From the NCBI GenBank assembly GCA_030427245.1, contig JAUHXA010000035.1, positions 1 through 64,000 on the forward strand: DNA of 64,000 nt, read 5' to 3'. The notes under the pieces were generated by a model. The model was not told the DNA's origin and searched no databases. It saw only the letters and a program-made list of their open reading frames with translations. Source of the DNA: Bacteroidia bacterium (GTDB taxonomy: Bacteria; Bacteroidota; Bacteroidia; Chitinophagales; UBA2359). Made by a program: the position numbers and the translations under genes. Position 1 is the stretch's first letter; each line of letters begins with the position of its first letter. This document shows, piece by piece, positions 306 through 16,353 of the stretch.

Positions 306-649
306 GTTGGGCAGAAATCCCTCTCCTTCGTCGAGCGATTTCTGCCCAACGGAGCGAGCGATATTGTTACGATATTCTCGTTCCGTTAAGTTTTAGGCAT
401 GTCCTAAAGCTGGGTCGTGCCTTCTTTACGCTTTGGGAAAGGTTCAGTCGTTGGGCACGGACTACGACTGTTGAATTTTAGAATTCGCCTTCCATAAGGC
501 AGAAGGCACTATCCGCCAACACTGTGTACACGCAATAGCACCCACTATTGCAGGTTCACAGTTACTTACATTTTTTTAAAGGTACGTACCTTAGCAGCGA
601 GCTTTCGCTACACGTGGTCGTGGGTGCGACTGCGTGTACACTCGCTCCG
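306..649 (+). repeat. Spacer cassette R1: gene-less giant attC-like repeat
   Basis: First of five near-identical ~344-bp units. The 5' core GTTGGGC (306-312) is followed by a hairpin whose 15-bp arms pair perfectly and end in the inverse core GCCCAAC (344-350). Next come GGAGCGAG and, ~300 bp later, CTCGCTCC plus the exit core GTTGGGT (649-655), so 344-655 reads as one very long attC. Nested inside are a compact ~50-bp attC-like site, a palindrome near 405, an inverted pair around GTGTACACGCA, and a GAATTC site (481-486). Open frames across it are also present in the other copies and cross cassette junctions, so I regard them as fortuitous. R1 and R5 share several substitutions that separate them from R2-R4. 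Confidence 0.8.
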
Positions 650-693
650 TTGGGTGCTACCAGTTAAAAAAGAAAAACTACAGAATTAAGATA

Positions 694-1440
694 ATGAAAG
701 AAAATACCCATACTTTTTTAAGTAAGCTAAATAAACCACAGCTTGGTAGTTTAGGAGAATTCCTTTTTTGCCAAATAATGAAATGTAAGGAATTTTCGAT
801 TAAATCACGACATAAAAACCAAATAGATTTTGTTATTAATGAAATAATTAAAGTAGATGTCAAGACACAAAGAAAGTTGAATGAAAATTATTATAAAACA
901 CCTAAATATTATGGTCGAAAATTAAAGGGTGTGGAATATGCTTTAGTCATTTTGTATAACGACAAACTCTACTTTTCTTTAAAAGATATTGTTGAAGAAT
1001 ACCTATATGAAGATATTCAAGGTTGGATAGAAAAATGGAAAGTTAAGCGAACAATTAAGTTAGAGAAGTCAATAAATCGAGGGCAAAAAAACGCAATTAA
1101 TCTTGTGAAAAAGAAGATTATAGATAAAGTAAAAGGTTTTGGAAAAGTGGCAAGAATAATTTACAGGACAAATCAGATAGACTTTGGAGATGAAAGTCCA
1201 GGAAACTTAATTCCGTTAAAAATAGAGAAAGAAAGGTGGACAATATTTTTGAATTATAAATATGAGATAAGTGATGAAAAACTAATTGAAATTATTGCAT
1301 TTAAAGAAGAAGAAGCTACTCAATTCCCAAGATTAAAAAAAAATAGATTACATGAAGAGAAAATAGACTTAAAGCGGTTAGATGAAAAGTACAAATTTAA
1401 AACAGTGAAAAATTTACTTGAAACAATAAAAAATAGCTAA
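694..1440 (+). CDS. PD-(D/E)xK nuclease-like protein in a gene cassette
   Basis: About 248 residues. I chose the ATG at 694 because an upstream in-frame ATG at 634 lies inside the repeat R1. The N-terminal half has a PD-(D/E)xK arrangement: an acidic residue in GSLGEFLF, an Asp in QIDFVI and the DVK triad within KVDVKTQ. This resembles the small endonuclease-like fold of group I intron and restriction-type nucleases. The Lys-rich C-terminal half is not recognised. It sits alone in a cassette bounded by GTTGGGT (649) and the attC at 1609-1676. A DNA-cleaving or defence role is inferred from fold and context. No methyltransferase accompanies it, so a solitary restriction enzyme is unlikely unless it targets modified DNA. 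Confidence 0.6.
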   Translation: MKENTHTFLSKLNKPQLGSLGEFLFCQIMKCKEFSIKSRHKNQIDFVINEIIKVDVKTQRKLNENYYKTPKYYGRKLKGVEYALVILYNDKLYFSLKDIVEEYLYEDIQGWIEKWKVKRTIKLEKSINRGQKNAINLVKKKIIDKVKGFGKVARIIYRTNQIDFGDESPGNLIPLKIEKERWTIFLNYKYEISDEKLIEIIAFKEEEATQFPRLKKNRLHEEKIDLKRLDEKYKFKTVKNLLETIKNS

Positions 1441-1608
1441 ATAAATTCAATGAACATGAAATAGAAAAGTGTAATTCAATAATCGTATTTTTATGATAAA
1501 AAAATTTACGCTTGAATAAAATGTTTTAGATACAGCTTGAATTTTTTCAAAAATATCTTTAAAAACCTTCAAAAACTGTTGTAATAAATAGAATAAAAAT
1601 AAGGCAGC

Positions 1609-1676
1609 ACCCAACAAAAGCAACATCGTCCAGCCGTGGCAAAAGCCACGTCCGTCGTTGTTGCAGGACGTTGGGC
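1609..1676 (+). other. attC-like site of the nuclease cassette
   Basis: The inverse core ACCCAAC (1609-1615) is the exact complement of this cassette's own 5' core GTTGGGT (649-655). A 3' arm containing GTTGTTGC and the core GTTGGGC (1670-1676) pairs with AAAGCAAC downstream of the inverse core. The central part holds a GTGGC/GCCAC hairpin. The length (~68 bp) and layout are those of ordinary integron attC sites. The stretch 1441-1608 between gene and attC shows no gene. Confidence 0.7.
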
Positions 1677-2012
1677 AGAAATCCCTCTCCTTCGTCGAGC
1701 GATTTCTGCCCAACGGAGCGAGCGATATTGTTACGATATTCTCGTTCCGTTAAGCTTTAGGCATGTCCTAAAGCTGGGTCGTGCCTTCTTTACGCTTTGG
1801 GAAAGGTTCAGTCGTTGGGCACGGACTACGACTGTCGAATTTTAGAATTCGCCTTCCATAAGGCAGAAGGCACTATCCGCCAACACTGTGTACACGCAAT
1901 AGCACCCACTATTGCAGGTTCACAGTTACTTATATTTTTTAAAGGTACGTACCTTAGCAGCGAGCTTTCGCTACACGTGGTCGTGGGTGCGACTGCGTGT
2001 ACACTCGCTCCG
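1670..2012 (+). repeat. Spacer cassette R2
   Basis: Second copy of the ~344-bp repeat, with cores GTTGGGC (1670), GCCCAAC (1708-1714) and exit GTTAGGC (2012-2018). It contains the perfect palindrome AGCTTTAGG/CCTAAAGCT (1753-1775) and a GAATTC site (1845-1850). An open frame starting at 1797 runs through the repeat in phase into the downstream gene. The fusion is a by-product of the repeat and not evidence for a longer protein. Confidence 0.8.
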
Positions 2013-2024
2013 TTAGGCACAATA

Positions 2025-3002
2025 ATGAAAAAAAATAAAATGGAATCAAACAAAGTAGTAGATGCATTATTTGGAGTTGCAATTGGAGATGCAGTTGGGG
2101 TTCCGTTTGAATTTAGTTCAAGAGAAAAGATGAAAACAAATCCTGCAAAAGGGATGATTGGTTATGGAACTTATAATCAACCTAAAGGAACTTGGTCTGA
2201 TGATAGTTCATTAACATTTTGTTTAGCAGAGTCTCTAAAAAAGGGATATGACCTAAAAGATATATCGGAAAATTTTATTAAGTGGAAGAATGAAGCATAT
2301 TGGTCAGCAAGAGGAAAAGTATTTGATATTGGAATGACTACATCAAAAGCAATTTCAAGGTTAAGAAAAATAATTGAAGATGATGATTTAGATGAGTTGG
2401 GAAGACAAAAGTATTATGGTGATGAATACGACAATGGGAATGGTTCCTTAATGAGAATTATTCCATTATTGTTTTACATCAAAGAAAAGCCAATTAAAGA
2501 ACAGTTTGAAATCATTTGGGAAATTTCAGCATTAACTCATAGACATATAAGAGCAGCAATGAGCTGTTTAATATATTTAAAAGTTGCTGAAAAGTTACTT
2601 GAAGGAAAAGATAAAGAAAATTCGTATTCGGAAATGAGAACAGAAATAAAATCATTTTGGGATGAAATGGAATTTTCAGAGAGTGAAAGAGAACATTTCA
2701 AAAAAGTTATCCAAAATGATATTAGAGAAACAAAAATTGAAGATTTGAAATCAGGCGGATATGTAATTGAAGTTCTCGAATCAAGTATTTGGTTTTTTCT
2801 GAATAGTAAAACTTATGAAGAAACAATTTTGTCAATAATAAATATTGGTCACGACACAGATACATCAGCGGCAATAGCAGGAGGATTAGCGGGGATTTAC
2901 TACGGACTAAAGAGAATCCCTGAATATTGGATTGTTTCAATAGCAAGGATGGAAGACATTATGGAATTAGGAAATGAATTAAATAAAAAATACTGTGCCT
3001 AA
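2025..3002 (+). CDS. ADP-ribosylglycohydrolase family protein
   Basis: About 325 residues matching the DraG/ARH family, which removes ADP-ribose from modified targets using two metal ions. Visible signatures are GVAIGDAVGVPFEF near the N-terminus, WSDDSS around residue 60 (metal-binding acids), NGNGSLMR mid-protein, an HRH segment, and GHDTDTSAAIAGGLAG near the C-terminus (second metal site). The start is the ATG at 2025, 13 bases after the cassette junction; an in-frame ATG at 2040 is an alternative. The stop codon TAA (3000-3002) lies inside the inverse core GCCTAAC, as is common in integron cassettes. It may counter an ADP-ribosylating toxin or reset a regulatory modification, but no transferase is adjacent. 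Confidence 0.88.
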   Translation: MKKNKMESNKVVDALFGVAIGDAVGVPFEFSSREKMKTNPAKGMIGYGTYNQPKGTWSDDSSLTFCLAESLKKGYDLKDISENFIKWKNEAYWSARGKVFDIGMTTSKAISRLRKIIEDDDLDELGRQKYYGDEYDNGNGSLMRIIPLLFYIKEKPIKEQFEIIWEISALTHRHIRAAMSCLIYLKVAEKLLEGKDKENSYSEMRTEIKSFWDEMEFSESEREHFKKVIQNDIRETKIEDLKSGGYVIEVLESSIWFFLNSKTYEETILSIINIGHDTDTSAAIAGGLAGIYYGLKRIPEYWIVSIARMEDIMELGNELNKKYCA

Positions 3003-3063
3003 CAATGTGTAAAATGTTCATAGTGGCTAAACGCCACTACGCCATTTAGCCAGACCGTTGGGC
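2997..3063 (+). other. attC-like site of the ADP-ribosylglycohydrolase cassette
   Basis: The inverse core GCCTAAC (2997-3003) is exactly complementary to the cassette's 5' core GTTAGGC (2012-2018). The distal arm CATTTAGCCAGACC plus GTTGGGC (3057-3063) pairs with GTGTAAAATG after the inverse core. A GTGGC/GCCAC hairpin lies in the middle. Sites of the same architecture end the cassettes at 5442, 7962 and 15911, so these gene cassettes share an attC family. Confidence 0.72.
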
Positions 3064-3399
3064 AGAAATCCCTCTCCTTCGTCGAGCGATTTCTGCCCAA
3101 CGGAGCGAGCGATATTGTTACGATATTCTCGTTCCGTTAAGCTTTAGGCATGTCCTAAAGCTGGGTCGTGCCTTCTTTACGCTTTGGGAAAGGTTCAGTC
3201 GTTGGGCACGGACAACGACTGTCGAATTTTAGAATTCGCCTTCCATAAGGCAGAAGGCACTATCCGCCAACACTGTGTACACGCAATAGCACCCACTATT
3301 GCAGGTTCACAGTTACTTATATTTTTTAAAGGTACGTACCTTAGCAGCGAGCTTTCGCTACACGTGGTCGTGGGTGCGACTGCGTGTACACTCGCTCCG
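3057..3399 (+). repeat. Spacer cassette R3
   Basis: Third copy, with cores GTTGGGC (3057) and GCCCAAC (3095-3101) and a GAATTC site (3232-3237). Its exit core is damaged: GCTGCAA (3399-3405) instead of GTTRRRY. The downstream cassette ends with a GCAGCGAAC-type inverse core, whose complement would be GTTCGCTGC. A deletion of about four bases at this junction would explain the mismatch. Confidence 0.78.
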
Positions 3400-3471: not shown

Positions 3472-4308
3472 ATGGCAAAAAAGAATCAATCTAAAAGGTT
3501 AACAAAGCAACATAAAAAGTCGCAAGGAGTAGTAGGTATATTTGGTAACAAAGCTAAATTGCATGATTTGACTGTTGGAGAAATATCAAAACTGGTTATC
3601 GAACAACTTGAAAAAGAGTATCCACAATTATACTTTCGATACAGGAAAAATATAAGGAAAGAAGAAATCAATGAGGCGTTAAAGAAAATTGACCCAGAAT
3701 TAGGACAGACCCTTTTTGTATCAAATTCAAGTATCAAGCCTGATGGTGGAATAATTGAGGTAAAAGACGATAACAAAAATTGGAGGGTTATTTTAGTCTC
3801 CGAAGCAAAACATCAAGGGAAAGATATTGGAAATATCAGAATGGGTAACTTAGTAGGAAAAAATAACAATCAAGACTTGATGGCTGCTGGCAATGCAATA
3901 GAAAGGTCGCATAAAAATATTTCAGAAATTGCCAACTTTATGCTTTCTGAATCTCACTTCCCTTATGTTCTATTTCTTGAAGGTTCAAACTTTTTGACAG
4001 AAACTATTTCAATTGAAAGACCAGATGGTAGGGTTGTTAGGCTTGAATACAACTCAGGAATGTTAAATCGATTAGATAGATTGACTTCTGCAAATTATGG
4101 AATGCCAATAAACACTAATTTGTGTGAGAATAAATTTGTCAAACATACAGATAAGACGATTATGCTACAAGCGACTTCTATTTATACTCAGGGAAATGGA
4201 GAAAAATGGGATAAGAAAGAAATGTTTGACATTATGCTTGATATTTCAAAAACCTCTCTTAAAGTATTAGGAAGTGATATTTTCAAACAGTTAACAGAAG
4301 CTAAATAA
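3472..4308 (+). CDS. ecoRIR: Type II restriction endonuclease, EcoRI family (predicted G^AATTC)
   Basis: 278 residues and colinear with R.EcoRI of Escherichia coli (277 residues). The catalytic D91, E111 and K113 fall at the same numbering (PDGGI and SEAKHQGKD). So do the DNA-contacting residues N141, E144, R145 (GNAIERSHKNISEI), R200 and R203 (LNRLDR). Long stretches such as LFVSNSSIKPDGGI are identical to my recollection of the E. coli protein. I therefore predict cleavage at GAATTC as a homodimer. The cognate methyltransferase follows 37 bp downstream in the same cassette. EcoRI was described from an E. coli plasmid, so a close homologue in a Bacteroidota cassette array indicates horizontal transfer. 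Confidence 0.95.
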   Translation: MAKKNQSKRLTKQHKKSQGVVGIFGNKAKLHDLTVGEISKLVIEQLEKEYPQLYFRYRKNIRKEEINEALKKIDPELGQTLFVSNSSIKPDGGIIEVKDDNKNWRVILVSEAKHQGKDIGNIRMGNLVGKNNNQDLMAAGNAIERSHKNISEIANFMLSESHFPYVLFLEGSNFLTETISIERPDGRVVRLEYNSGMLNRLDRLTSANYGMPINTNLCENKFVKHTDKTIMLQATSIYTQGNGEKWDKKEMFDIMLDISKTSLKVLGSDIFKQLTEAK

Positions 4309-4345
4309 TTATATCCGTTATCTATAAAAACAATATGAGTAAACT

Positions 4346-5326
4346 ATGGCAAGAAGAGCAACTAATAAATTACTACAAAAAGCTAAAAAATCAAAAAGTG
4401 ATGAATTTTACACACAACTTGCAGATATTGAAAGTGAGTTGAAACATTATAAAAATCACTTCAAAGACAAAGTAGTTTACTGCAATTGTGACGACCCAAA
4501 AGTTAGCAATTTTTTTAAATATTTTTCCTCTAATTTCGAAGATTTAGGACTAAAGAAATTAATATCAGCTTGTTACAGAAAACAAGAGGTAGATTTATTC
4601 AATAGCGAAAAAACTGAAAGTGGATTTTACTTTGAATATGAAGGTGAACAGATAGATAGAAATGCAACCAATAAAGATAAAATTGATGTGGTTCACTTTA
4701 AAGGCGATGGAGATTTTAGGAGCAAAGAGAGCATCGAACTTTTAAAACAGTCTGATATTGTTGTTACTAATCCACCCTTTTCACTATTTCGAGAATATGT
4801 AGCTCAACTAATAAAATACGATAAAAAATTTCTAATAATTGGGAATATAAATGCAATTACATATAAAGAGATATTCAAATTAATAAAAGAAAACAAAGCG
4901 TGGTTAGGAATTAATTTAGGAAGAGGTATTTCAGGTTTTATTGTCCCTGAACATTATGAACTTTATGGTACAGAAGCAAGAATTGATGATTACGGAAATA
5001 GAATAGTATCTCCGAATAATTGTTTATGGCTAACAAATTTAGATACACCTATACGAAATGAAGATATACCCCTATCAAAAACATATTACGGGAACGAAAG
5101 TGAATATCCTAATTACGACAATTATGACGGAATTAATGTAAACAAAACAAAAGATATACCTAAAGACTATAAAGGTTTCATGGGAGTTCCAATAACATTT
5201 TTACACAAATTCAATCCCAATCAATTTGAAATCATAAAATTCAGAAAAGGAAATGATGAAAAGGATTTGGCAATAAATGGCAAGTGTCCATACTTCAGAA
5301 TTCTAATCAAAAACAGAAGATTATAG
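4346..5326 (+). CDS. ecoRIM: EcoRI-type adenine-N6 DNA methyltransferase
   Basis: 326 residues, the same length as M.EcoRI, which protects GAATTC by methylating the inner adenine. The N-terminal segment KLLQKAKKSKSDEFYTQ, the VVYCNCDDP motif, the catalytic motif IV VVTNPPFSLFREY and the C-terminal CPYFRILIKN all match the EcoRI methylase. The order (nuclease first, methylase second, same strand, short gap) is as in the E. coli pair. About 44 bases separate the stop from the start of the cassette's attC arm. Because each spacer repeat in this array carries a GAATTC, expression of this enzyme is needed to protect the array itself. Confidence 0.95.
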   Translation: MARRATNKLLQKAKKSKSDEFYTQLADIESELKHYKNHFKDKVVYCNCDDPKVSNFFKYFSSNFEDLGLKKLISACYRKQEVDLFNSEKTESGFYFEYEGEQIDRNATNKDKIDVVHFKGDGDFRSKESIELLKQSDIVVTNPPFSLFREYVAQLIKYDKKFLIIGNINAITYKEIFKLIKENKAWLGINLGRGISGFIVPEHYELYGTEARIDDYGNRIVSPNNCLWLTNLDTPIRNEDIPLSKTYYGNESEYPNYDNYDGINVNKTKDIPKDYKGFMGVPITFLHKFNPNQFEIIKFRKGNDEKDLAINGKCPYFRILIKNRRL

Positions 5327-5369: not shown

Positions 5370-5442
5370 CCAGCAGCGAACAAAGGCTAAAATGTCAATA
5401 GCCCCTATGCGCCCCACCTGCGTTTGCACGAGACCGTTGGGC
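5370..5442 (+). other. attC-like site of the EcoRI cassette
   Basis: GCAGCGAAC (5373-5381) serves as a degenerate inverse core, followed by AAAGGCTAAAATG. A GCCCC...GGGGC-like centre follows, then a distal arm ending in GTTGGGC (5436-5442). The layout matches the attC sites at 7892 and 15844. The inverse core does not match the present 5' core, consistent with the damaged junction at 3399. Confidence 0.5.
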
Positions 5443-5779
5443 AGAAATCCCTCTCCTTCGTCGAGCGATTTCTGCCCAACGGAGCGAGCGATATTGTTAC
5501 GATATTCTCGTTCCGTTAAGCTTTAGGCATGTCCTAAAGCTGGGTCGTGCCTTCTTTACGCTTTGGGAAAGGTTCAGTCGTTGGGCACGGACTACGACTG
5601 TCGAATTTTAGAATTCGCCTTCCATAAGGCAGAAGGCACTATCCGCCAACACTGTGTACACGCAATAGCACCCACTATTGCAGTTTCACAGTTACTTACA
5701 TTTTTTTAAAGGTACGTACCTTAGCAGCGAGCTTTCGCTACACGTGGTCGTGGGTGCGACTGCGTGTACACTCGCTCCG
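5436..5779 (+). repeat. Spacer cassette R4
   Basis: Fourth copy, with cores GTTGGGC (5436), GCCCAAC (5474-5480) and exit GTTAGGC (5779-5785), and GAATTC at 5611-5616. It carries a private substitution (GCAGTTTCACAG where the other copies have GCAGGTTCACAG), so it is not a fresh copy of R2. Even so, the 31 bases from its exit core into the next gene are identical to those following R2. Confidence 0.8.
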
Positions 5780-6877: not shown

Positions 6878-7879
6878 ATGGTAAGCGTTGAAAAAAAATA
6901 CGGTTTAAGAGAATACAAAGCCAACGAAGTTGTTTGGTTTAGAAAAACCAAAGAAGCATTTGGCGGGCTATCAAATATGTGTTCAGGCTATCAATTAGAG
7001 GTCAACGGACATAGAATATTAACATCAGAAGCATTGTATCAGGCGTGTAGATTTCCTGATTTACCTGATGTGCAACAAATAATCATCAATGAGAAAAGCC
7101 CAATGACCGCAAAGATGAAAAGCAAACCCCATAGAATACATACACGAGAAGACTGGGATAATGCAAGAGTTGCGATAATGAGGTGGTCATTACAGGTTAA
7201 ACTTGCTCAAAATTTCATAAAATTCGGAAAGTTGTTAGAAGAAACTTATCCAAAGCAAATTGTAGAAGACTCTCGAAAAGATAGATTTTGGGGTGCTGTA
7301 AGAGAAAAGAACGATGAAAATATCCTAACTGGCGTAAATGCCCTTGGCAGATTACTAATGGAACTAAGACAAAAATACATGTCTGAAAGCAGATATGACT
7401 TGCTTGTAGTCGAACCTTTGCAAATCAAGAACTTTAAATTATTTGGAGAGGAAATAGAAAGAATTGATGAACGAATGAATTTTGTAAATAGCTTAATCAA
7501 AGGTTGGGGGTTAAGCAGTTATTTTTCTTTAGAGAAGTTGAAAGAATTTGATGAAGCCTCATATTCGACTAAAAAAGATATAAGCTCATCTGTTAATGAA
7601 CCGCTTTTTGATTCTCCAAAGAATGGATTTAAAGCAAAGACAGAAAATGAAGAAAGCGAAGAAGATTTTATAGCTGACAAAGTGATGTTAATTCTAAAAT
7701 ATGGGAAAGCATTTTCTTCAAAAGATTTGATTAAAAGGGCAAGAGTTAGTTGGAAGACAAGTAAAATGACATCATTCCTTAAAAAACTTGAAGGAGTAGA
7801 GGTAATAAAAGGAAGTCCATTAAAATTTAAACTAAGCCAACCTGGAGAAGAAAATACTCTATTCTCAAACATAAAATAG
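6878..7879 (+). CDS. NADAR domain protein with C-terminal extension
   Basis: 333 residues. The N-terminal ~165 residues form a NADAR (YbiA-like) domain: VVWFRKTKEAFGGLSNM, the catalytic-site TSEALYQACRF, then DSRKDRFWGAVRE and NALGRLLMELR. NADAR proteins cleave N-glycosidic bonds; members remove ADP-ribose from guanine in DNA (DarT antitoxins) or hydrolyse riboflavin-pathway intermediates. The C-terminal ~170 residues are not recognised but include a region (about 260-325) that could be a winged helix. It is co-oriented with the PRTase-like gene 45 bp upstream and ends just before the cassette attC. No DarT-like toxin gene is nearby, so a role as a simple antitoxin is not supported. Confidence 0.82.
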   Translation: MVSVEKKYGLREYKANEVVWFRKTKEAFGGLSNMCSGYQLEVNGHRILTSEALYQACRFPDLPDVQQIIINEKSPMTAKMKSKPHRIHTREDWDNARVAIMRWSLQVKLAQNFIKFGKLLEETYPKQIVEDSRKDRFWGAVREKNDENILTGVNALGRLLMELRQKYMSESRYDLLVVEPLQIKNFKLFGEEIERIDERMNFVNSLIKGWGLSSYFSLEKLKEFDEASYSTKKDISSSVNEPLFDSPKNGFKAKTENEESEEDFIADKVMLILKYGKAFSSKDLIKRARVSWKTSKMTSFLKKLEGVEVIKGSPLKFKLSQPGEENTLFSNIK

Positions 7880-7891
7880 AAGAAGAAAAAC

Positions 7892-7962
7892 GCCGTAGAA
7901 CAAAGTGCAAAACGGCAAGTGGGGCTATGCGCCCCACCTGCGTTTAGCCGAGACCGTTGGGC
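7892..7962 (+). other. attC-like site of the PRTase-NADAR cassette
   Basis: A degenerate inverse core (GTAGAAC, 7895-7901) is followed by AAAGTGCAAAACGGC. A perfect GTGGGGC/GCCCCAC hairpin (7919-7936) and a distal arm CGTTTAGCCGAGACC lead into the core GTTGGGC (7956-7962). The inverse core does not complement the cassette's 5' core GTTAGGC, which suggests that the 5' end of this cassette was replaced. Confidence 0.55.
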
Positions 7963-8299
7963 AGAAATCCCTCTCCTTCGTCGAGCGATTTCTGCCCAAC
8001 GGAGCGAGCGATATTGTTACGATATTCTCGTTCCGTTAAGTTTTAGGCATGTCCTAAAGCTGGGTCGTGCCTTCTTTACGCTTTGGGAAAGGTTCAGTCG
8101 TTGGGCACGGACTACGACTGTTGAATTTTAGAATTCGCCTTCCATAAGGCAGAAGGCACTATCCGCCAACACTGTGTACACGCAATAGCACCCACTATTG
8201 CAGGTTCACAGTTACTTACATTTTTTTAAAGGTACGTACCTTAGCAGCGAGCTTTCGCTACACGTGGTCGTGGGTGCGACTGCGTGTACACTCGCTCCG
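7956..8299 (+). repeat. Spacer cassette R5
   Basis: Fifth copy, with cores GTTGGGC (7956), GCCCAAC (7994-8000) and exit GTTGAAC (8299-8305), and GAATTC at 8131-8136. It shares its substitutions with R1, notably AGTTTTAGG in the palindrome, which still pairs with CCTAAAGCT through a G-T wobble. It is the last R unit; from here on the spacers belong to the S family. Confidence 0.8.
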
Positions 8300-8359
8300 T
8301 TGAACAAAATTTCACCATATAAATTATTGACAATGTTTTAATTAGTTCAATTTTAACAA

Positions 8360-8393
8360 TATTTTTGCAGTATTCAATCACTTAAAAATACTG
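8360..8393 (+). promoter_or_regulatory. Promoter -7 element plus covarying hairpin/operator
   Basis: TATTTTTG (8360-8367) fits the Bacteroidota -7 element TAnnTTTG. It is followed at once by the inverted repeat CAGTATT (8368-8374) / AATACTG (8387-8393), seven bases before the start codon. The same arrangement recurs at 10175-10208, and at 15967-15992 the arms read CAGTGTT / AACACTG, a compensatory change. No good -33 TTG at the usual spacing is visible. Confidence 0.55.
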
Positions 8394-8399
8394 TCAAAA

Positions 8400-8660
8400 A
8401 TGGATACAATCAGCCAAGAATTAGAAGCCTTAGACAACTACCTACAACTCAAAAACTACAGCCTTGCCACCCGCAAATCCTACGGCTGCGCCCTCAAACA
8501 ATTCCTCCATTGGCGCATCAAACAAGGCTTCTCTGCAGAATTAGACCAGACCCAAGCCCGCCGATACATCCTCTATCGCTACGACCAAGGCTTGAAGTGG
8601 CAAACCATCAACGGTGACTATTCCGCCATGCTGCGTTATTTCCGAGAGGTCAAAAAATAG
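8400..8660 (+). CDS. Tyrosine recombinase N-terminal (core-binding, SAM-like) domain only
   Basis: 86 residues, MDTISQELEALDNYLQ to REVKK. The pattern LDNYLQLKNYSLATRKSY, then FLHW and TINGDYSAMLRYF is the helical core-binding domain that precedes the catalytic domain in XerC/D- and IntI-like recombinases. A stop codon ends the frame where the inter-domain linker would be, and no R-H-R-Y catalytic domain follows. It is either a truncated integrase remnant or a stand-alone DNA-binding protein. Intact reading frame, promoter and hairpin are retained here, while the copies at 10215 and 15999 are broken. The parent might be the array's own integrase or an unrelated transposon recombinase; the fragment cannot decide this. 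Confidence 0.6.
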   Translation: MDTISQELEALDNYLQLKNYSLATRKSYGCALKQFLHWRIKQGFSAELDQTQARRYILYRYDQGLKWQTINGDYSAMLRYFREVKK

Positions 8661-8965
8661 CTATCTCCACTTCAAATCCAACGAATTAATCACTTCTCAC
8701 CCCCTAATTTCTAAAATGAAACAATCCGTAGATGTATAAATTTGACCTTACACCCATTTTTGTTATTTTTACCAAACAGGAAAGTCAGACAAAAACCATA
8801 GCCTTTCCCCTATACTCCATTTCGGGCGGAACCGGTGGCTAAATTGAAATCCGTTTTTTCGCTTGGCAGATATGATATATAAAGAAAAAGAAGGCGGCGG
8901 CGCACAATAAAGTGTAGCTGACGTTAGCGATAATAAATCATTGAACCTAACATTTTCAACTTAAC

Positions 8966-10084
8966 ATGAAATTAACTCCAAAGGCGAAAAGAAACATTTC
9001 AAGGATTATTCCCTTCGCCATTATCTGGCTAGTGAGTGGATGGATAGTTGATGTAACGGAGCTCGGAGTAACACGTAATCAAAACCTCAATTCAGATACT
9101 GATATTGCCTTGACCGCCCCAGTGCTGATATTTGCTAGCCTCGCAAATATCCTGGTTGGAGCTATTGTAGGAGCTTTAGAAGTGGTTTATTTAGAAAAGA
9201 GATTCTCAAACCGAACACTGAGTGCTAAGATTTTTTACAAATTCTTAATCTACCTTGCCTTATTTATTATCATTATAGTCCTCCTTTATCCTGTGGCATT
9301 TACGCTCGAAACAGGCATAAGTTTGCTAAAAGTTGATGCTTGGCAAAAATTGGGTAGATTCTTAGTAAGTATCTCTTTTTTTATCACCCTATTTCATTTG
9401 TCTGTAAGGCTTATGGTTTGTTTGATATATTCAGCTATAAGTGAAAACTTAGGACACCATGTGTTTTTAAATTTTTTTTCCGGGAAATACCATCAACCCC
9501 AAATTGAAAAGCGGATTTTCATGTTCCTAGACATGAATTCTTCGACTACAATAGCCGAATCTCTAGGCCACATAAAATACTTCAAATTACTGGACACCTA
9601 TTACAATAGTATGTCAGACCCCATCATCAATTCATTCGGTGAAGTCTACCAGTACATAGGAGATGAAATCGTGATTTCATGGAAACCTGATAAGGGGATT
9701 TACCAGGCAAACTGCATCAAATGTTTCTTTGACATATGCAATCATCTCAATGAACAAAAAGAAGTTTTATTTCATGAATTTGGCTTTGAAATTGGTTTCA
9801 AAGCTGGGATTCATTTCGGTGAAGTCACTATTGGAGAAATTGGAGCCTTAAAAAGGGAAATCGTATTTACGGGAGATGTCTTAAATACAACCGCTCGAAT
9901 CCAAAGTCTTTGTAAGGAATTAAAATCTGACTTACTGATCTCAGGTGCAATTAAAGAATTATTACCCCATTCTAACTATCAATATAGCTCTAAAGGAGAG
10001 ATAGAACTGAAAGGAAGAAATAAGAAAGAAGAACTGTTTAGCGTAACTTTAGAAAAGAAGCCGACAATCGCTAACAATATGTAA
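8966..10084 (+). CDS. Membrane class III adenylate/guanylate cyclase
   Basis: 372 residues. The N-terminal ~165 residues hold several hydrophobic segments (around 12-28, 48-72, 85-112, 130-160) consistent with a membrane anchor. The C-terminal half is a class III nucleotidyl cyclase domain: FMFLDMNSST (first metal Asp), YQYIGDEIVISW (second Asp), HFGEVTIGEIG, and LNTTARIQS (transition-state Asn/Arg). It would make cAMP or cGMP at the inner membrane; which one is not clear from sequence. The last codons and stop run into the attC (ending PTIANNM), so the gene belongs to the cassette. A Crp-family regulator gene lies two cassettes downstream, but no link is shown. Confidence 0.85.
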   Translation: MKLTPKAKRNISRIIPFAIIWLVSGWIVDVTELGVTRNQNLNSDTDIALTAPVLIFASLANILVGAIVGALEVVYLEKRFSNRTLSAKIFYKFLIYLALFIIIIVLLYPVAFTLETGISLLKVDAWQKLGRFLVSISFFITLFHLSVRLMVCLIYSAISENLGHHVFLNFFSGKYHQPQIEKRIFMFLDMNSSTTIAESLGHIKYFKLLDTYYNSMSDPIINSFGEVYQYIGDEIVISWKPDKGIYQANCIKCFFDICNHLNEQKEVLFHEFGFEIGFKAGIHFGEVTIGEIGALKREIVFTGDVLNTTARIQSLCKELKSDLLISGAIKELLPHSNYQYSSKGEIELKGRNKKEELFSVTLEKKPTIANNM

Positions 10085-10120
10085 ACTGCATTAAAACGCA
10101 GTTTATAATTAACGTCGAAC
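10069..10120 (+). other. attC-like site of the cyclase cassette
   Basis: The inverse core CGCTAAC (10069-10075) is an exact complement of the cassette's unusual 5' core GTTAGCG (8923-8929). It is followed by the perfect stem TAAACTGC/GCAGTTTA and the exit core GTCGAAC (10114-10120). At ~52 bp it is short but within the attC range. The gene's stop codon lies inside it. Confidence 0.62.
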
Positions 10121-10577
10121 AAATTTAACTATATAAATATGTGATAATGTTTTAATTGCGCTAATTTTACATTCTATTTTTGCAGTATTCAATCACTTGA
10201 TAATACTGTCAAAAATGGATACAATCAGCCAAGAATTAGAAGTTTTAGACAACTACCTACAACTCAAAAACTACAGCCTTAGCACCCGCAATTCCTACGG
10301 CTGCGCTCTCAAACAATTCCTCCATTGGCGCATCAAATAGGGGTTTTTTGAAGAATTAGACCAGACCCAAGCCCGCAAATAAATCTTTCTAAAATGAAAC
10401 AACCCATAGATGTATAAATTGGACTTTTCCTTCAATTTTGTTATTTTTACGAAGCAGGAAAGTCAGACAAAAACCATAGCCTTTCCCTTATACCCAATTT
10501 CGTTCAACTGAAATGTCTGCGATAGTGAAGTTTGGTGTATTGTCCGAAGGGTTGGGAGGCGCAGAGATTCCTTAGTG
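10114..10577 (+). repeat. Spacer cassette S2
   Basis: Second member of the recombinase-fragment spacer family. It has core GTCGAAC, a leader with TATTTTTG (10175-10182) and the CAGTATT/AATACTG hairpin, the broken fragment gene, and a terminal attC (10502-10583). That attC has inverse core GTTCAAC, arms ATGTCTGCG / CGCAGAGAT and exit core GTTAGTG (10577-10583). The inverse core complements GTTGAAC, the 5' core seen at 8299, with one difference from its own 5' core. Confidence 0.68.
10215..10340 (+). pseudogene. Broken copy of the recombinase N-terminal fragment
   Basis: It starts like the gene at 8400 (MDTISQELE, KNYSLSTRNSYGCALKQFLHWRIK) but meets an in-frame TAG at 10338-10340 in place of the Gln codon following RIK. 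The following DNA still aligns with the intact copy until about 10378, where it jumps to the conserved downstream block. It cannot make a useful protein. Confidence 0.7.
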
Positions 10578-10583
10578 TTAGTG
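10502..10583 (+). other. attC-like site shared by the S spacers
   Basis: The inverse core GTTCAAC (10502-10508) and arm ATGTCTGCG pair with CGCAGAGAT and the exit core GTTAGTG. The same ~82-bp site ends S3 (14516-14597, arms perfectly complementary) and S4 (16232-16313, more mismatches). The conserved centre contains GTCCGAAGGGTTGGGAGG. Confidence 0.62.
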
Positions 10584-10650
10584 GCAAGCCAAAAGAATAA
10601 ACTCTTGGATTTAAACGAAAATTTGACAAAAATTTAAACACTACTTAACA

Positions 10651-11178
10651 ATGGAAAATATCAAAGTTAGTAAAACAAAAAAAGTCTTAAAAGGTGATAT
10701 TCTTTTAAGTCATGGAGATATTGCTAAATATGGTTTTAGAGTAAAAAGCGGTTGTCTAAAAAGTTATGTTATTGATAATGCAGGCAAAGAACACATCTTG
10801 CAATTTGCTCCAGAAGATTGGCTAATTGGAGATATGGACAGTGCGACCAATAAAAAACCTTCCGTTATTTTTATTGATGCCATCGAAGACAGTGAGGTTT
10901 CATTTATTTCAACTTCTGATTTTGGTGATTTTCATAGTTTAGAAAAAGAATTGCTTGCAGAAATGAGTATTAAACTCCGAAACAATTTAATCGCAACCAA
11001 CAAAAGGATTATCAGTTTATTGAGTGCTACTGCCAAAGAACGATACATAGAATTCACAAATACTTACCCTACTTTAGTACAGCGACTCCCGCTAAAACTT
11101 ATCGCTTCTTACATTGGCATTACGCCAGAATATTTGAGTGACCTGAGACGAAAAATTTCAAAAAGTCAAAAAAAATAA
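10651..11178 (+). CDS. Crp/Fnr-family transcriptional regulator
   Basis: 175 residues. The N-terminal ~120 residues form a cyclic-nucleotide-binding-type beta barrel (KGDILLSHGDIAKYGFRVKSG, then LQFAPEDWLIGDM). The C-terminal helix-turn-helix reads RLPLKLIASYIGITPEYLSDLRRKI, a variant in which the usual PRxxLA motif is short, as in many Bacteroidota Crp-like proteins. It is the first gene of a six-gene + strand cluster that ends at 14358 and probably controls it. The ligand is not predictable. There are 115 bp between this gene and the next, so the downstream genes may have their own promoter (CAACTTTG near 11239). Confidence 0.85.
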   Translation: MENIKVSKTKKVLKGDILLSHGDIAKYGFRVKSGCLKSYVIDNAGKEHILQFAPEDWLIGDMDSATNKKPSVIFIDAIEDSEVSFISTSDFGDFHSLEKELLAEMSIKLRNNLIATNKRIISLLSATAKERYIEFTNTYPTLVQRLPLKLIASYIGITPEYLSDLRRKISKSQKK

Positions 11179-11293
11179 GCCAAAAGCACACTTCTTAAGC
11201 TATCTTAATTTTTATCTGCTGTTTCTCCCGCAACTTTGTGTCATCAATTAATCAATAGACTTTTACTTTAAAGTTTATTCAAAAAAATAAAAA

Positions 11294-11824
11294 ATGACAC
11301 CAATTAAATTTCTAGGAATGATTGCAGCTATCGTTTTATGCTCTGCATTTACAATCAACAATTCAATGTCTTGGCAAATAGCGGAAGGATATTCCATAAA
11401 ATTTGCAGGAACAGATGTGGAAGGCATTTTTAAAACGATGAGCGGAGATATTCAATTTGATGAAAACAACTTGGATGCATCCAAGTTTTCAACCTCTATT
11501 GATGTTGCATCCATTAATACTGGTAATGGGATGAAAAACAAACATGCCGTAAGTAAAAAATGGTTTGATGCAGAAACATATCCAGCTATAACATTCAATT
11601 CGAGCAAATTTAGCAAAACAGATACTGGATACGAAGTGACTGGAACACTTGAAATCCACGGTACTCAAAAAGAAATAAGCATCCCTTTTACATTTTCTGA
11701 TAATACCTTCAACGGCGAATTTAGCGTCAACAGAATGGACTTTGGAGTAGGCACCATGAAAGGCATGTCGAAAAAAGTATCCAATGAAATTAAGTTGGAA
11801 ATCTCTGTCCCTGTAACAAAATAA
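11294..11824 (+). CDS. YceI-family periplasmic lipocalin-like protein
   Basis: 176 residues with a signal peptide (MTPIKFLGMIAAIVLCSAF). The body shows the YceI pattern: YSIKFAGTDVEGIFKTMSGDIQFD, then KNKHAVSKKWFDAETYPAITFNSS, GTLEIHGTQKEISIPF and a final beta strand. YceI proteins form a lipocalin-like barrel that binds isoprenoid or quinone-type lipids in the periplasm. In Bacteroidota they commonly sit with DoxX and cytochrome-b-like membrane proteins under a Crp-like regulator, as here. The next gene starts 27 bp downstream. Confidence 0.88.
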   Translation: MTPIKFLGMIAAIVLCSAFTINNSMSWQIAEGYSIKFAGTDVEGIFKTMSGDIQFDENNLDASKFSTSIDVASINTGNGMKNKHAVSKKWFDAETYPAITFNSSKFSKTDTGYEVTGTLEIHGTQKEISIPFTFSDNTFNGEFSVNRMDFGVGTMKGMSKKVSNEIKLEISVPVTK

Positions 11825-11850
11825 TTCTTTCCACATTCAAATTTCTTATC

Positions 11851-12243
11851 ATGATAAAATTACTCATTCACGGAGTAGTAGCTGGTCTATTGGCTGGGAT
11901 GGCAGGCATTATCTACCTCAATATCTATATAGAAGCTTTCGGAGTTGATTACAGTCAGATTATCAACACGGGAGCTATATTAGGTTCTAGTTTGATAGCT
12001 TGTATGCTGATGACGCTGGGATATGCAGCTTTGTTTAAATTCGATAAACAAAATTTGCAGGGTTGGTTAAACATATTGATTGCGGTGCTTTCATTTGCCA
12101 GTATTATTGGTCCTATCGGGATGAGTTTGCCGCTTGATATTGAATTTCCAGAATTATTTCCAGGTTTAGTCGTACCGATGCACTTCTTCCCTGCATTGGC
12201 GTTTTTTACCATTTATCCTTTTTTAAAACAAAATAAATTATAA
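11851..12243 (+). CDS. Small four-helix membrane protein, function unknown
   Basis: 130 residues, mostly hydrophobic, with four predicted membrane segments (about 6-27, 37-60, 70-88 and 100-123). I do not recognise a conserved catalytic motif. It lies between the YceI gene and the DoxX gene, with only 4 bp to the latter, so it is almost certainly co-transcribed. A role in membrane redox or stress together with DoxX is inferred from position only. Confidence 0.7.
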   Translation: MIKLLIHGVVAGLLAGMAGIIYLNIYIEAFGVDYSQIINTGAILGSSLIACMLMTLGYAALFKFDKQNLQGWLNILIAVLSFASIIGPIGMSLPLDIEFPELFPGLVVPMHFFPALAFFTIYPFLKQNKL

Positions 12244-12247
12244 CAAA

Positions 12248-12658
12248 ATGACAAATCAAAAAAATAATAAAGCCATGAATATCGCCCTTTGGGTGGTGCA
12301 AGTACTATTAGGACTTATCTTTTTAATGGCTGGTGCAACAAAATCTTTTCAGTCAATAGAAGTCATGGCAGAATCATTGCCTTGGGTGACTTCCGTCCCC
12401 GCTGGATTAGTCCGTTTTATTGGTATTAGTGAATTATTAGGAGGCATAGGTTTGTTACTTCCTTCTATTCTTCGAATCAAACCACACTTAACAGTTTGGG
12501 CAGCCATAGGCTTGACAATAGTGATGGTTTTGGCAGCTTTATTCCATGCTTCAAGAGGAGAGTTTCCTGCTATCGGGGCGAATGTTGTATTCATTGCGCT
12601 AACTGCATTTGTGGCATGGGGAAGAAGCAAAAAAGCACCTATTTTTCCTAAAGGATAA
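12248..12658 (+). CDS. DoxX-family membrane protein
   Basis: 136 residues with four membrane segments. The DoxX signature is visible as LLGLIFLMAGATKSF near the N-terminus, GISELLGGIGLLLPS in the second helix region and ALFHASRGEF before the last helix. DoxX-like proteins are small inner-membrane proteins linked to redox and oxidative-stress functions. It overlaps none of its neighbours and precedes a 104-bp gap that contains a strong hairpin. Confidence 0.85.
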   Translation: MTNQKNNKAMNIALWVVQVLLGLIFLMAGATKSFQSIEVMAESLPWVTSVPAGLVRFIGISELLGGIGLLLPSILRIKPHLTVWAAIGLTIVMVLAALFHASRGEFPAIGANVVFIALTAFVAWGRSKKAPIFPKG

Positions 12659-12684
12659 GGATTTCGTAAAGTACAACCTTGGGC

Positions 12685-12736
12685 ATGAGGACAAAATAAA
12701 TTGGTATTCTTTCATCGTTTCTTATTTTGTCCTCAT
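12685..12736. terminator. Perfect 15-bp hairpin inside the operon
   Basis: ATGAGGACAAAATAA (12685-12699) and TTATTTTGTCCTCAT (12722-12736) are exact complements separated by 22 bases. The downstream sequence is only moderately T-rich, so it may be an attenuator, an RNA-stability element or an operator instead of a full terminator. Confidence 0.5.
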
Positions 12737-12762
12737 CTCTTAATTTTAAATAAATTACAAAA

Positions 12763-13368
12763 ATGGAGCATTTAAAATCATTATTAACAGGCAAATATAT
12801 CCTTTGGTTAATCTTGGCAATTCCGGGAGTCATGGCTACCATTAATTATATTAAGGAGCAACTTGACTATAATATGATGATGCATATCACTGGTGAATTT
12901 GCTGGTCGATTTTTAGTCATCAGTTTAATCGCAACCCCTATCGCTTTGATGTTTCCGAAAGGTCGAGTATCGAAATGGCTCATCAGAAATCGGAGGTTTT
13001 TCGGAGTAGCGGCTTTTGCTTACACTTTATTGCATACCATTTTTTATATACTGGAATATCCGTTTAGTCAATTGGTCAATGAATTTTCAGATGTTGCTAT
13101 TTTGACTGGATGGGTTGCCTTTTTTATTTTTATCCCGTTGGCGATGACGAGTACAGATGCAGCCGTAAAAAGGATGGGAACTGCTTGGAAAAAATTACAG
13201 CGATGGGTTTATTTAGCTGCTGTAATGGCTTTTGCACATTGGGCATTATTGGGTTTGCAAGGAGAACACGCAAGTATGGGGGGCGCATTATTTCATTTTG
13301 CACCTGTGATGTTTTTGCAGGTGTATAGAATTTGGAAACAACAAAAGAATACTTTAAAGCTAAATTAG
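12763..13368 (+). CDS. Ferric-reductase-like / MsrQ-like heme membrane protein
   Basis: 201 residues with about six hydrophobic helices. It resembles the ferric-reductase-like transmembrane domain family (MsrQ/YedZ). His residues in AYTLLHTIFYILEY and MAFAHWALLGLQGEH are placed to bind heme, and KGRVSKWLIRNRRFFGVAAF matches the helix-connecting region. MsrQ delivers quinol electrons to periplasmic partners, but no msrP is adjacent. Instead the next gene begins directly after the stop codon (TAG then ATG), indicating tight coupling to an exported VOC protein. Confidence 0.78.
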   Translation: MEHLKSLLTGKYILWLILAIPGVMATINYIKEQLDYNMMMHITGEFAGRFLVISLIATPIALMFPKGRVSKWLIRNRRFFGVAAFAYTLLHTIFYILEYPFSQLVNEFSDVAILTGWVAFFIFIPLAMTSTDAAVKRMGTAWKKLQRWVYLAAVMAFAHWALLGLQGEHASMGGALFHFAPVMFLQVYRIWKQQKNTLKLN

Positions 13369-14358
13369 ATGGAGCGTAAAACATTTTTAAAAAAACTTTT
13401 AGGCGGAACAACTTTAATCACAGCCTCAACTTTAATATCAATGGATGGATTTTCTACGATTGTCAATGCTTTGTCGCATGACAATAAAAACAATAATAAT
13501 TCAAATGACTTTGCCACCTATGGTGCCATTCACTTGAACATTACGAATATTAAAAAAGCGACGGTTTTCTGGACAAAAATAGTGGGTATGAAACTCCGAG
13601 AAACCTCAGGAAACAGAGCTGAATTTGGAACGGAGACTAAGACATTAGTCGTCGTTCATGAAACCGCAAAAAAGTCTTATCAAAAAGGATACAGTGGGCT
13701 TTATCATTTTGCTATTCATGCACCTAATGAAGCTGAATTTGCCAGTATGATAAATCGCCTAAACGTCAATCGATACCCTTATTCTCCGATTGACCATACG
13801 ATGTCGAAGTCCGTTTATTTAGATGAACCCGATGGAATCAATATTGAATTTACATTGGAAACTCCAGAGCGGTTTAAAAGAGTCGTTACAACAGGCGGAC
13901 TTAAAATAGAAGGTGCTGATGGTATTGTTCGCTCTGCCTCGGAACGCTTGGATGTAAATGAGGTTTTGAATGCTGTAAAAGATAAAAGTTTCAGTGAAAA
14001 TCTTTCAGACGACTCTTATATTGGTCATGTGCATTTATATGCCAACAATGTGGAGGAATCTAATGAATTTTATAAAAAAATGGGCTTTATACAATTCAAC
14101 TATCTTCCACAATTTATGTACGCCGATTTGGGAGCAGGAGGCGATTATCAACATCGAATTGTTATGAACTCATGGCATGGTCAAAACCGACCTTTAGCGC
14201 CAAAGGGAAGCGCAGGGATGAGGCATTTTCAAATAAATTATAAAGACAAAAGTAAGTTCCAACAAGCATTAAAGAATATTCCTGATTATGAAGAAAAAGA
14301 GACAGGCTATTGGTTGAATGATGCAACTGGCAACAAAATTTTAGTAAAAATGGGCTAA
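13369..14358 (+). CDS. Exported VOC-family (glyoxalase/extradiol dioxygenase-like) protein
   Basis: 329 residues. A hydrophobic N-terminus (RKTFLKKLLGGTTLITASTL) suggests export. Two vicinal-oxygen-chelate modules follow: the first has metal-type ligands in GAIHLNI, YHFAIHAP and GINIEFTLE; the second has GHVHLYAN and MRHFQINY. This layout matches CatE-like two-domain proteins. The substrate is unknown. The start codon abuts the preceding gene's stop. The stop TAA sits in GGCTAAC (14353-14359), which looks like the inverse core of a lost attC. The DNA then jumps into a truncated spacer, so the 3' end of this cassette has been deleted. Confidence 0.8.
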   Translation: MERKTFLKKLLGGTTLITASTLISMDGFSTIVNALSHDNKNNNNSNDFATYGAIHLNITNIKKATVFWTKIVGMKLRETSGNRAEFGTETKTLVVVHETAKKSYQKGYSGLYHFAIHAPNEAEFASMINRLNVNRYPYSPIDHTMSKSVYLDEPDGINIEFTLETPERFKRVVTTGGLKIEGADGIVRSASERLDVNEVLNAVKDKSFSENLSDDSYIGHVHLYANNVEESNEFYKKMGFIQFNYLPQFMYADLGAGGDYQHRIVMNSWHGQNRPLAPKGSAGMRHFQINYKDKSKFQQALKNIPDYEEKETGYWLNDATGNKILVKMG

Positions 14359-14375
14359 CATTTTTTTTTTGGAAC

Positions 14376-14591
14376 CAAATCCAAGCCCGCAAATACATCC
14401 ATCTAAAATGAAACAACCCATAGATGTATAAATTGGACTTTTCCTTCAATTTTGTTATTTTTACGAAGCAGGAAAGTCAGACAAAAACCATAGCCTTTCC
14501 CTTATACCCAATTTCGTTCAACTGAAATGTCTGCGATAGTGAAGTTTGGTGTATTGTCCGAAGGGTTGGGAGGCGCAGACATTCCTTTGAG
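14376..14591 (+). repeat. Spacer cassette S3, 5'-truncated
   Basis: Only the 3' part of an S spacer remains. It begins in the recombinase fragment at CCAAGCCCGC, continues through the conserved downstream block and ends in an intact attC (GTTCAAC 14516-14522, arms ATGTCTGCG and CGCAGACAT perfectly paired, exit core GTTGGCT 14591-14597). The promoter, hairpin and start codon are gone. The deletion also removed the attC of the preceding operon cassette. Confidence 0.65.
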
Positions 14592-14614
14592 TTGGCTGTA
14601 ATTAAAAGACAAAA

Positions 14615-15859
14615 ATGAAAATCTGCATTGCACAAACGAAATCTGAAAAAGGAGAAATTCAGTTGAATATAGAAAATCATTTGAAGCTAATCAATCGTGC
14701 AATCGGTTTGAATTCCAACCTAATAGTATTCCCAGAATTATCCATTACTAACTATGAACCTGATATAGCCAAAGAATTTGCTATTGATATAGATGATACT
14801 ATTTTTAATTCATTTCAAAAATTGTCAGATAAAAATGAAATAGTTATTGGAGTTGGGATGCCAACCAAGGCAGTTGACGGGATAAATATTAGTATGTTGA
14901 TTTTTCAACCGAATAAAGAGAGAATGATTTATTCCAAGTGTCTACTTCATTCTGATGAAATTCCATATTTCGTAAGTGGTAACATCCAGCCATTCTTAAA
15001 GATAAAAGGAAAGAAGATTGCTCTCGGAATATGCTATGAAACACTTCAACGAGAGTATTTTATAAAAGCAAAACAAAATGGTGCTGATGTTTATATTGCA
15101 AGTGTTGCAAAACCAGATAGAGGAACGGATAAAGCATATTCATATTTTCCTTTAATAGCAAAGGAATTTGAAACTCCAATACTAATGTCTAACTCTATTG
15201 GATATTGCGATAATTTTCTAAGCAATGGGCTTAGTTCTGTTTGGAATAGAAAAGGAGAATTAATCGGGCAACTTGATAAAGTAAATCAAGGTCTACTGAC
15301 TTACGACACAGAAACTGAAATAGCAGAAGTGAACCAACTGAGAATAGAAAAAGGGCTTTTGTCCGATTTAGACGACCTTTTCCAAATTTATAAGAATAGT
15401 AAGACGGAATTAGAGAAAAACGGAATTTATCAATGGACAGATAATTATCCAACACGTTCGATTATTCAAAATGATTTAAGAAAGGATGTACTGTATGTTC
15501 TAAAAAACGATAGGGAAGTAATAGGTGCAATAAATTTAAGTGAAGAACAAGAAGATGAATATCAATCTATTAATTGGCAATTTGATAATTCTAAAGTATT
15601 GGTTATTCACAGATTGGTGGTTGAACCAAAACACCAAAGAAAAGGCTACGCAAGAATACTAATGAATTTTACAGAAAATTTTGCAAAAGAAAACAGCTAT
15701 ACATCAATAAGATTAGATGCGTATAGTAAAAATGAAAGGGTATTAAAATTTTATAAAAAGCGAGAATATTTCATTCGAGGGGATGTTAATTTTCCTGAAA
15801 GAAATCATCCTTTTCATTGTATGGAAAAAGAAATAAAAACTGCCTACAACAAAGGCTAA
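14615..15859 (+). CDS. Nitrilase-superfamily amidohydrolase fused to a GNAT acetyltransferase
   Basis: 414 residues. Residues 1 to ~245 form a carbon-nitrogen hydrolase with the Glu-Lys-Cys triad: E in FPELSITNYEPD, K in YSKCLLHSDE and C in LGICYETLQREYF. Residues ~260-410 form a GNAT domain with the acetyl-CoA loop VVEPKHQRKGYARILM. The fusion could hydrolyse an amide and acylate an amine in one polypeptide, but the substrates are not predictable. It is alone in its cassette; its stop codon lies inside the cassette's attC, as does that of the cyclase gene. Confidence 0.85.
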   Translation: MKICIAQTKSEKGEIQLNIENHLKLINRAIGLNSNLIVFPELSITNYEPDIAKEFAIDIDDTIFNSFQKLSDKNEIVIGVGMPTKAVDGINISMLIFQPNKERMIYSKCLLHSDEIPYFVSGNIQPFLKIKGKKIALGICYETLQREYFIKAKQNGADVYIASVAKPDRGTDKAYSYFPLIAKEFETPILMSNSIGYCDNFLSNGLSSVWNRKGELIGQLDKVNQGLLTYDTETEIAEVNQLRIEKGLLSDLDDLFQIYKNSKTELEKNGIYQWTDNYPTRSIIQNDLRKDVLYVLKNDREVIGAINLSEEQEDEYQSINWQFDNSKVLVIHRLVVEPKHQRKGYARILMNFTENFAKENSYTSIRLDAYSKNERVLKFYKKREYFIRGDVNFPERNHPFHCMEKEIKTAYNKG

Positions 15860-15911
15860 AATGGCAATATGGGCTATGCACCCATACTACGCTTAGTTGA
15901 GACTGTTGAGC
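15844..15911 (+). other. attC-like site of the nitrilase-GNAT cassette
   Basis: A degenerate inverse core CTACAAC (15844-15850) is followed by AAAGGCTAAAATGGC. An ATGGGC/GCACCCAT hairpin and the distal arm CGCTTAGTTGAGACT lead into GTTGAGC (15905-15911). It is clearly homologous to the sites at 2997, 5370 and 7892. Confidence 0.6.
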
Positions 15912-16307
15912 ATAATTTTACTATATAAATAAATGCTAAATTGTATCAATTTTTATTCTATCTTCGCAGTGTTCAATCGCTTGAAAACACTGTAAAAAGT
16001 GGATACAATAAGCCAAAAATTACAGCCTTGCCACCCACAAATCCTACGGCTGCGCCCTCAAACAATTCCTCCATTCACGCATTAAAAAAGGATTTAACCA
16101 CTTCTCGCCCTCCAATTTCTAAAATGAAACAACCCATAGATGTATAAATTGGGCTTTTCCTTCAATTTTGTTATTTTTACAAAGCAGGAAAGTCAGACAA
16201 AAAACATAGTCTTTCTCCTATACCCAATTTTGTTCAACTGAAATGTCTGCGATAGTGAAGTTTGGACTATTGTCCGAAGGGTTGGGAGGCACAGGGATTC
16301 CTTTGAG
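15905..16307 (+). repeat. Spacer cassette S4
   Basis: Fourth S spacer: core GTTGAGC, leader with the covarying hairpin CAGTGTT/AACACTG (15967-15992), a broken recombinase fragment, the conserved block and the attC 16232-16313. That attC has inverse core GTTCAAC and exit core GTTATGT (16307-16313). It is the most diverged copy; its attC arms pair poorly (GTCTGCG against CACAGGG), so it may be inactive. Confidence 0.65.
15999..16110 (+). pseudogene. Degenerate recombinase N-terminal fragment
   Basis: The start codon is GTG where the intact copy has ATG. An internal deletion after MDTISQ removes the LDNYLQ segment and shifts the frame before ALKQFLH-equivalent DNA. It is clearly derived from the same gene as 8400-8660, but no coding function remains. 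Confidence 0.65.
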
Positions 16308-16353
16308 TTATGTGTAAACTAAACAGACACCATTTATCCAAATTGAGACAGGT

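Follow-up and report, generated by a model that had tools for sequence, protein, structure and literature searches.

Gene-less cassettes have been described in the superintegrons of Vibrio (PMC1382264; PMC11014356), where they lack ORFs, are bounded by G|TT, occur as similar copies scattered in the array, and gave no homologues beyond their own lineage; promoter activity has been shown for such cassettes (PMC11014356). The attC sites of integrons range in size from 57 to 141 bp (PMC3053210). The only complete integron that IntegronFinder 2 named for Bacteroidetes proper was that of Salinibacter ruber (PMC9024848). The repeat described here, R, shares the ORF-less make-up, boundaries, scattered copies, and lineage restriction of the Vibrio elements, but is found in a different phylum and with a different recombinase type; it also carries an additional 5′ domain that folds, and a second attC-like pairing, nested and larger than the first. 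The kind of element to which we assign R, a paralogous gene-less cassette, is known from Vibrio (PMC1382264, PMC11014356); here, it resides in an unusual integron-like platform.

The window, a 64-kb stretch that is contig C114 of a 7.6-Mb genome, contains five copies of R (Table 1), and seven further copies are present elsewhere in the genome. The 12 copies, on contigs C114, C39, and C141, are 343–345 bp long and 98–100% identical; contig C137 carries, in addition, one diverged copy and one partial homologue. Every copy starts with G|TTGGGCAGAAATC and ends with CTCGCTCCG|TT (G|CT in one), while the flanking sequence differs between copies. The left boundary thus lies at the G|TT crossover in 12 of 12 copies and the right boundary in 11, which bears out the proposal, made in an earlier sequence-only reading, that R is integron-type with a G|TT crossover at its right end. 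Haplotypes are defined by seven variable sites and by a T-run of 6–8 bases, and one of them is common to different contigs; together with the different neighbours, this fits movement of R rather than purely local duplication. R contains no ORF above 48 aa, none is common to all copies, and the length of the T-run changes the reading frame; a protein-coding R was rejected on these grounds. Searches of 199 relatives, 395 genomes of the phylum, plasmids, phages, and viral and genome contigs returned nothing outside the own genome except a 19-mer match in Amycolatopsis, taken as chance. Rfam gave no credible match to R, either at the gathering cut-off or at E values up to 10.

Table 1. Location of R copies, of the structural elements of copy 1, and of associated genes (window coordinates unless a locus is given)
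Feature	Position	Strand	Remarks
R copy 1	306–649	+	G|TTGGGC ... CTCGCTCCG|TT
R copy 2	1670–2012	+	
R copy 3	3057–3399	+	followed by GCT, not GTT
R copy 4	5436–5779	+	
R copy 5	7956–8299	+	
Start hairpin	307–349	+	17-nt arms 307–323/333–349, 94% complementary; holds most of the upstream attC R′ and the outer R″
Outer inverse core R″, GCCCAAC	344–350	+	complements the cassette's own start
Outer L″-like arm, GGAGCGAG	351–358	+	pairs with 641–648
Compact attC-like stretch ending GTTAAGY	344–397	+	cut here in no copy
5′ structured domain	412–514	+	long-range stem 412–425/501–514 with inner hairpins
Inner attC	514–655	+	R″ CGCCAAC 514–520, spacer ACT, L″ GTGTACACGCA 524–534, L′ TGCGTGTACAC 631–641, spacer TCGCTCC 642–648, R′ GTTGGGT 649–655
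R′ core GTTGGGT	649–655	+	crossover G|TT for both readings; final six bases are part of the following cassette
Ordinary gene cassette after R copy 1	649–1676	+	start GTTGGGTGC matches R″ GCACCCAAC; 68-bp attC; ends in the R′ that it has in common with R copy 2
IntI-like tyrosine recombinase	L009 (G000, own genome; C141) 8351–9760	−	heads a cassette array on its own strand

On C141, a 469-aa tyrosine recombinase and a direct-repeat region precede the array, which starts at ...TTGAAGAC-G|TTCTCGG (attI, GAAGAC-G|TTCTCGG). A duplicate of this attI on C39 has R inside, ...TTGAAGAT-G|[R]|TTCTCGG (GAAGAT-G|R|TTCTCGG). Compared with the C141 site, this is an occupied integration site, the comparison being between two attI copies in one genome rather than one locus in two strains. 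The C39 duplicate (L008, 5642–6026), in which the recombinase gene is reduced to its final part, heads its own array. Both at attI and between cassettes, R is inserted without target duplication.

In the ordinary neighbouring cassettes that could be called by the scan, the bases after G|TT complement the R″ of the cassette's own attC, the attC sites are 66–91 bp long, and the spacers are ca. 2–4/4–6 bases. The complementarity of R″ to the own cassette start is normally ca. 7–9 nt in these arrays. In the case of R, it amounts to 14 nt or more for the outer R″ and, by inspection, to 5 nt for the inner one, so this rule picks the outer R″, against the inner-attC reading. Among the cassettes of the window, the one at 3472–5326 combines an endonuclease of the EcoRI family (Pfam, 506 bits) with an EcoRI-type methylase (443 bits), and those at 2037–3002 and 6878–7879 encode an ADP-ribosylglycohydrolase and a NADAR-domain protein. 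Positions 8300–16309 contain a second repeated cassette-like element, which carries a SAM-like N-terminal recombinase fragment of 86 aa or what is left of it; its attC-like end has 3/7 spacers (GTTCAAC TGA AATGTCTGCG .. CGCAGACATT CCTTTGA GTT). Four direct repeats of 300 nt each, spaced by exactly 507 bases, are located at 53451–55271.

The sequence-only reading regarded R as a ca. 312-bp giant attC made of nested hairpins, and each element it listed was found. GCCCAAC followed by GGAGCGAG occupies 344–358, and CTCGCTCC followed by GTTGGGT occupies 641–655; 14 nt (345–358/641–654) are perfectly complementary in copy 1. A 22-nt inverted pair (524–545/620–641, 91%), the palindrome AGCTTTAGG (a hairpin 389–397/403–411, AGTTTTAGG in copy 1), GGTACGTACC (581–590), and the compact attC-like stretch are likewise present. 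In the outer reading, GCCCAACGGAGCGAG (344–358) pairs with CTCGCTCCGTTRRRY (641–655) over 312 bp; the arms, which can also be written GCCCAACGGAGCGAG/CTCGCTCCGTT, close the bottom-strand fold. Nested within is a complete attC of 141–143 bp, with an 11-bp L stem and 3/7 spacers, which the five copies on C39 and the two on C141 all contain and which is identical in sequence among the R copies of the window. It has both the R″/R′ and the L″/L′ pairs, unpaired spacers, and about the known size, while the giant site, at 312 bp, is well above that range, and its outer arms pair continuously, without an unpaired central spacer. The crossover at 649/650 is common to the inner and outer readings. On C137, a diverged relative of the inner attC (in L010) is found by itself behind another gene, and the BLAST homology sets in at its R″; a diverged 312-bp block is located behind a RidA-like gene, where the homology sets in at the outer R″. 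Both sites thus look like modules, and the larger one seems to have been built around the smaller.

The folds described below are thermodynamic predictions for naked DNA at 37 °C and ignore protein and SSB. The predicted free energy of the bottom strand of 344–655 is −72.7 kcal/mol, compared with −38.1 ± 3.8 for shuffled sequences (z −9.2, 0/100); that of the top strand is −71.1 kcal/mol (z −8.5). When the 312 nt of the bottom strand were folded alone, a stable outer stem joining the core ends was predicted, as the giant-attC proposal had anticipated, with a pairing probability of ca. 0.9 in 11 of 12 copies and 0.63 in the other (range 0.63–0.92). A different picture was obtained for this strand once native flanks of 60 and 40 bases were included. 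The start hairpin then formed with a probability of 0.78–0.93, the inner L stem was retained at 0.91–0.99 in 12 of 12 copies, and the outer stem fell to 0.00–0.65 (below 0.25 in 10 of 12 copies), the outer R″ box being taken up by the start hairpin. On the bottom strand, the inner L stem thus formed robustly whatever the context. The R′ of the upstream attC was paired into the start hairpin of R with a probability of 0.98–1.00, compared with 0.01–0.66 when the next cassette was put in R's place. In an excised R circle, the junction is predicted to form a 22-bp perfect stem, CTCGCTCCGTTGGGCAGAAATC/GATTTCTGCCCAACGGAGCGAG. The giant attC is thus real as sequence and as a predicted isolated fold; as the main recombination substrate it is unlikely, given the displacement of its stem in native flanks and the complete inner attC that shares its R′.

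Substitutions between copies contribute less, as the seven variable sites and the T-run are too few differences for covariation among the 12 copies. Three of the variable sites among the 12 copies fall in paired columns, and each breaks a bottom-strand pair and leaves a G-T wobble on the top strand. Of the 21 substitutions seen against the diverged C137 copy, 18 affect paired columns. In most of the pairs concerned, a single transition has left a wobble on one of the two strands, which says little; only two pairs have changes in both partners with pairing retained, and these belong to the inner L-stem arm. Covariation in these alignments thus weakly favours the inner stem. The outer arms hardly vary outside R′, so substitutions cannot decide on the outer stem.

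The C141 recombinase scores 224.8 bits against TIGR02249, its best NCBIfam match by E-value, which is below the 265-bit cut-off. Compared with VchIntI4, ca. 41 residues before the HxLRH box are missing; the Arg-to-HxLRH spacing is 92–95 residues in the own integrase and in the relatives checked, and the IntI-specific additional domain (PMC9668308) is lacking in this recombinase family. Its C-terminus, SPLDKL, and its position beside attI and the array are those of IntI, whereas its transcription towards the array and an additional N-terminal region weakly similar to HARP (E 0.063) are not. A T9SS sorting-domain protein adjoins the C141 integrase and points to Bacteroidota.

Homologues of the recombinase were found in 72 of 150 genomes searched (own genome included), often at contig ends and facing the break. 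A search of seven of these genomes for IntI above the TIGR02249 cut-off gave no hit. Where the sequence continues, same-strand arrays follow the recombinase in four relatives, G107, G147, G061, and G064 (L050, L052, L053, L061). The G107 array is superintegron-like, with 14 chained cassettes (L053, L078) and attC sites of 134, 167, and ca. 195–200 bp, reaching beyond the published 57–141 bp; the runs in the other three genomes are shorter. In both C141 and G107, attI and a cassette array lie next to the integrase. Twelve control stretches from these four genomes and from the own genome gave no chained cassettes, while the continuations of the G107 and G147 arrays did. We infer from its position that the C141 recombinase acts on R and on the sites of the array.

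How R recombines can be read in several ways. A giant attC of ca. 312 nt would use the outer R″/R′ pair, with GGAGCGAG paired to CTCGCTCC and the 5′ domain branching off at the foot of the inner stem (a three-way junction), and would be recombined chiefly in the excised circle. The outer complementarity (perfect over 14 nt in copy 1, and 11 nt long in most copies), the outer stem predicted for the 312 nt alone, the perfect junction stem of the circle, the own-start rule, and the C137 block standing behind its gene as if it were an attC module are all in line with this. Yet such a site would be without the unpaired central spacer, its stem is displaced by the start hairpin in native context, its arms show no covariation, and the inner site alone has the tested attC features, own-start complementarity excepted; we consider this reading unlikely. 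An elaborated version, in which a 312-nt composite attC with the three-way junction at its base is recombined by an IntI-like enzyme without the IntI-specific domain, and insertion is almost unidirectional because the upstream attC is masked by the start hairpin, appears still less likely. The end of the compact stretch, TCGTTCCG|TTAAGC, resembles the right end, TCGCTCCG|TT, and an internal GTTGGGC at 450–456 matches the outer R″, as might be expected if two cassettes had been fused (a compact attC at 344–397 and a second element extending to 649) with two or three live crossovers. The halves, however, stay together in all 12 copies and in the diverged one, which gives no support to the suggestion of two or three internal recombination points, and the genome search found neither half alone, except for the relative of the inner attC. 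Two live cassettes are therefore very improbable; fusion may explain the origin of R, but not its present functioning.

A regulatory function is doubtful. R could be kept because it acts as a structured RNA or supplies a promoter to the downstream gene, as in gene-less Vibrio cassettes (PMC11014356): it is immediately followed by gene cassettes in the arrays, is strongly structured on both strands, and its three paired polymorphisms are wobbles on the top strand but breaks on the bottom one. Against this, Rfam gave no credible match, and the Bacteroidota promoter consensus was matched only with two mismatches and never closely, although promoters of gene-less cassettes are not predictable in silico (PMC11014356). 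Such a role would be compatible with R being a cassette. R is also short, non-coding, and repeated, with inverted ends, as a MITE or an IS-derived repeat that happened to target attC sites would be. The boundaries of R, however, always lie at the core crossover without target duplication (0 of 12 copies lie outside cassette boundaries with such duplications), R sits at attI like any cassette, and the plasmid and phage collections gave nothing related; we regard this origin as scarcely credible.

We therefore consider it probable that R is a paralogous gene-less cassette of the integron type that moves as one unit and uses its inner attC, the giant fold being secondary or conditional. R would insert after the G of the G|TT in attI or in the attC that precedes it. 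Its 3′ crossover would be served by the bottom-strand fold of the inner 141-bp attC (514–655), and the recombinase would most likely be the IntI-like enzyme encoded beside attI on C141. The 5′ domain (306–513) is without a gene, and the outer arms could lengthen the inner hairpin into a 312-nt three-way fold. In integrated R, the 17-nt start hairpin would usually take the outer R″ box and would also sequester the R′ box of the upstream attC. With that box sequestered, integrated R would probably be hard to excise, and through low excision, copies could accumulate.

R follows the R″/L″/L′/R′ plan and GTT core of integron attC sites, and the inner site, at 141–143 bp, is of a similar size; the outer one would measure 312 bp, compared with 167–200 bp for long attC sites of G107. 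To the known gene-less cassettes, R adds nested, competing folds at one crossover, and makes testable the use by a recombinase of an attC several times the usual length, and the possibility of a cassette locking itself in. More broadly, the results point to integron-like platforms in Bacteroidota, with a recombinase without the IntI-defining domain and attC sites of up to ca. 200 bp.
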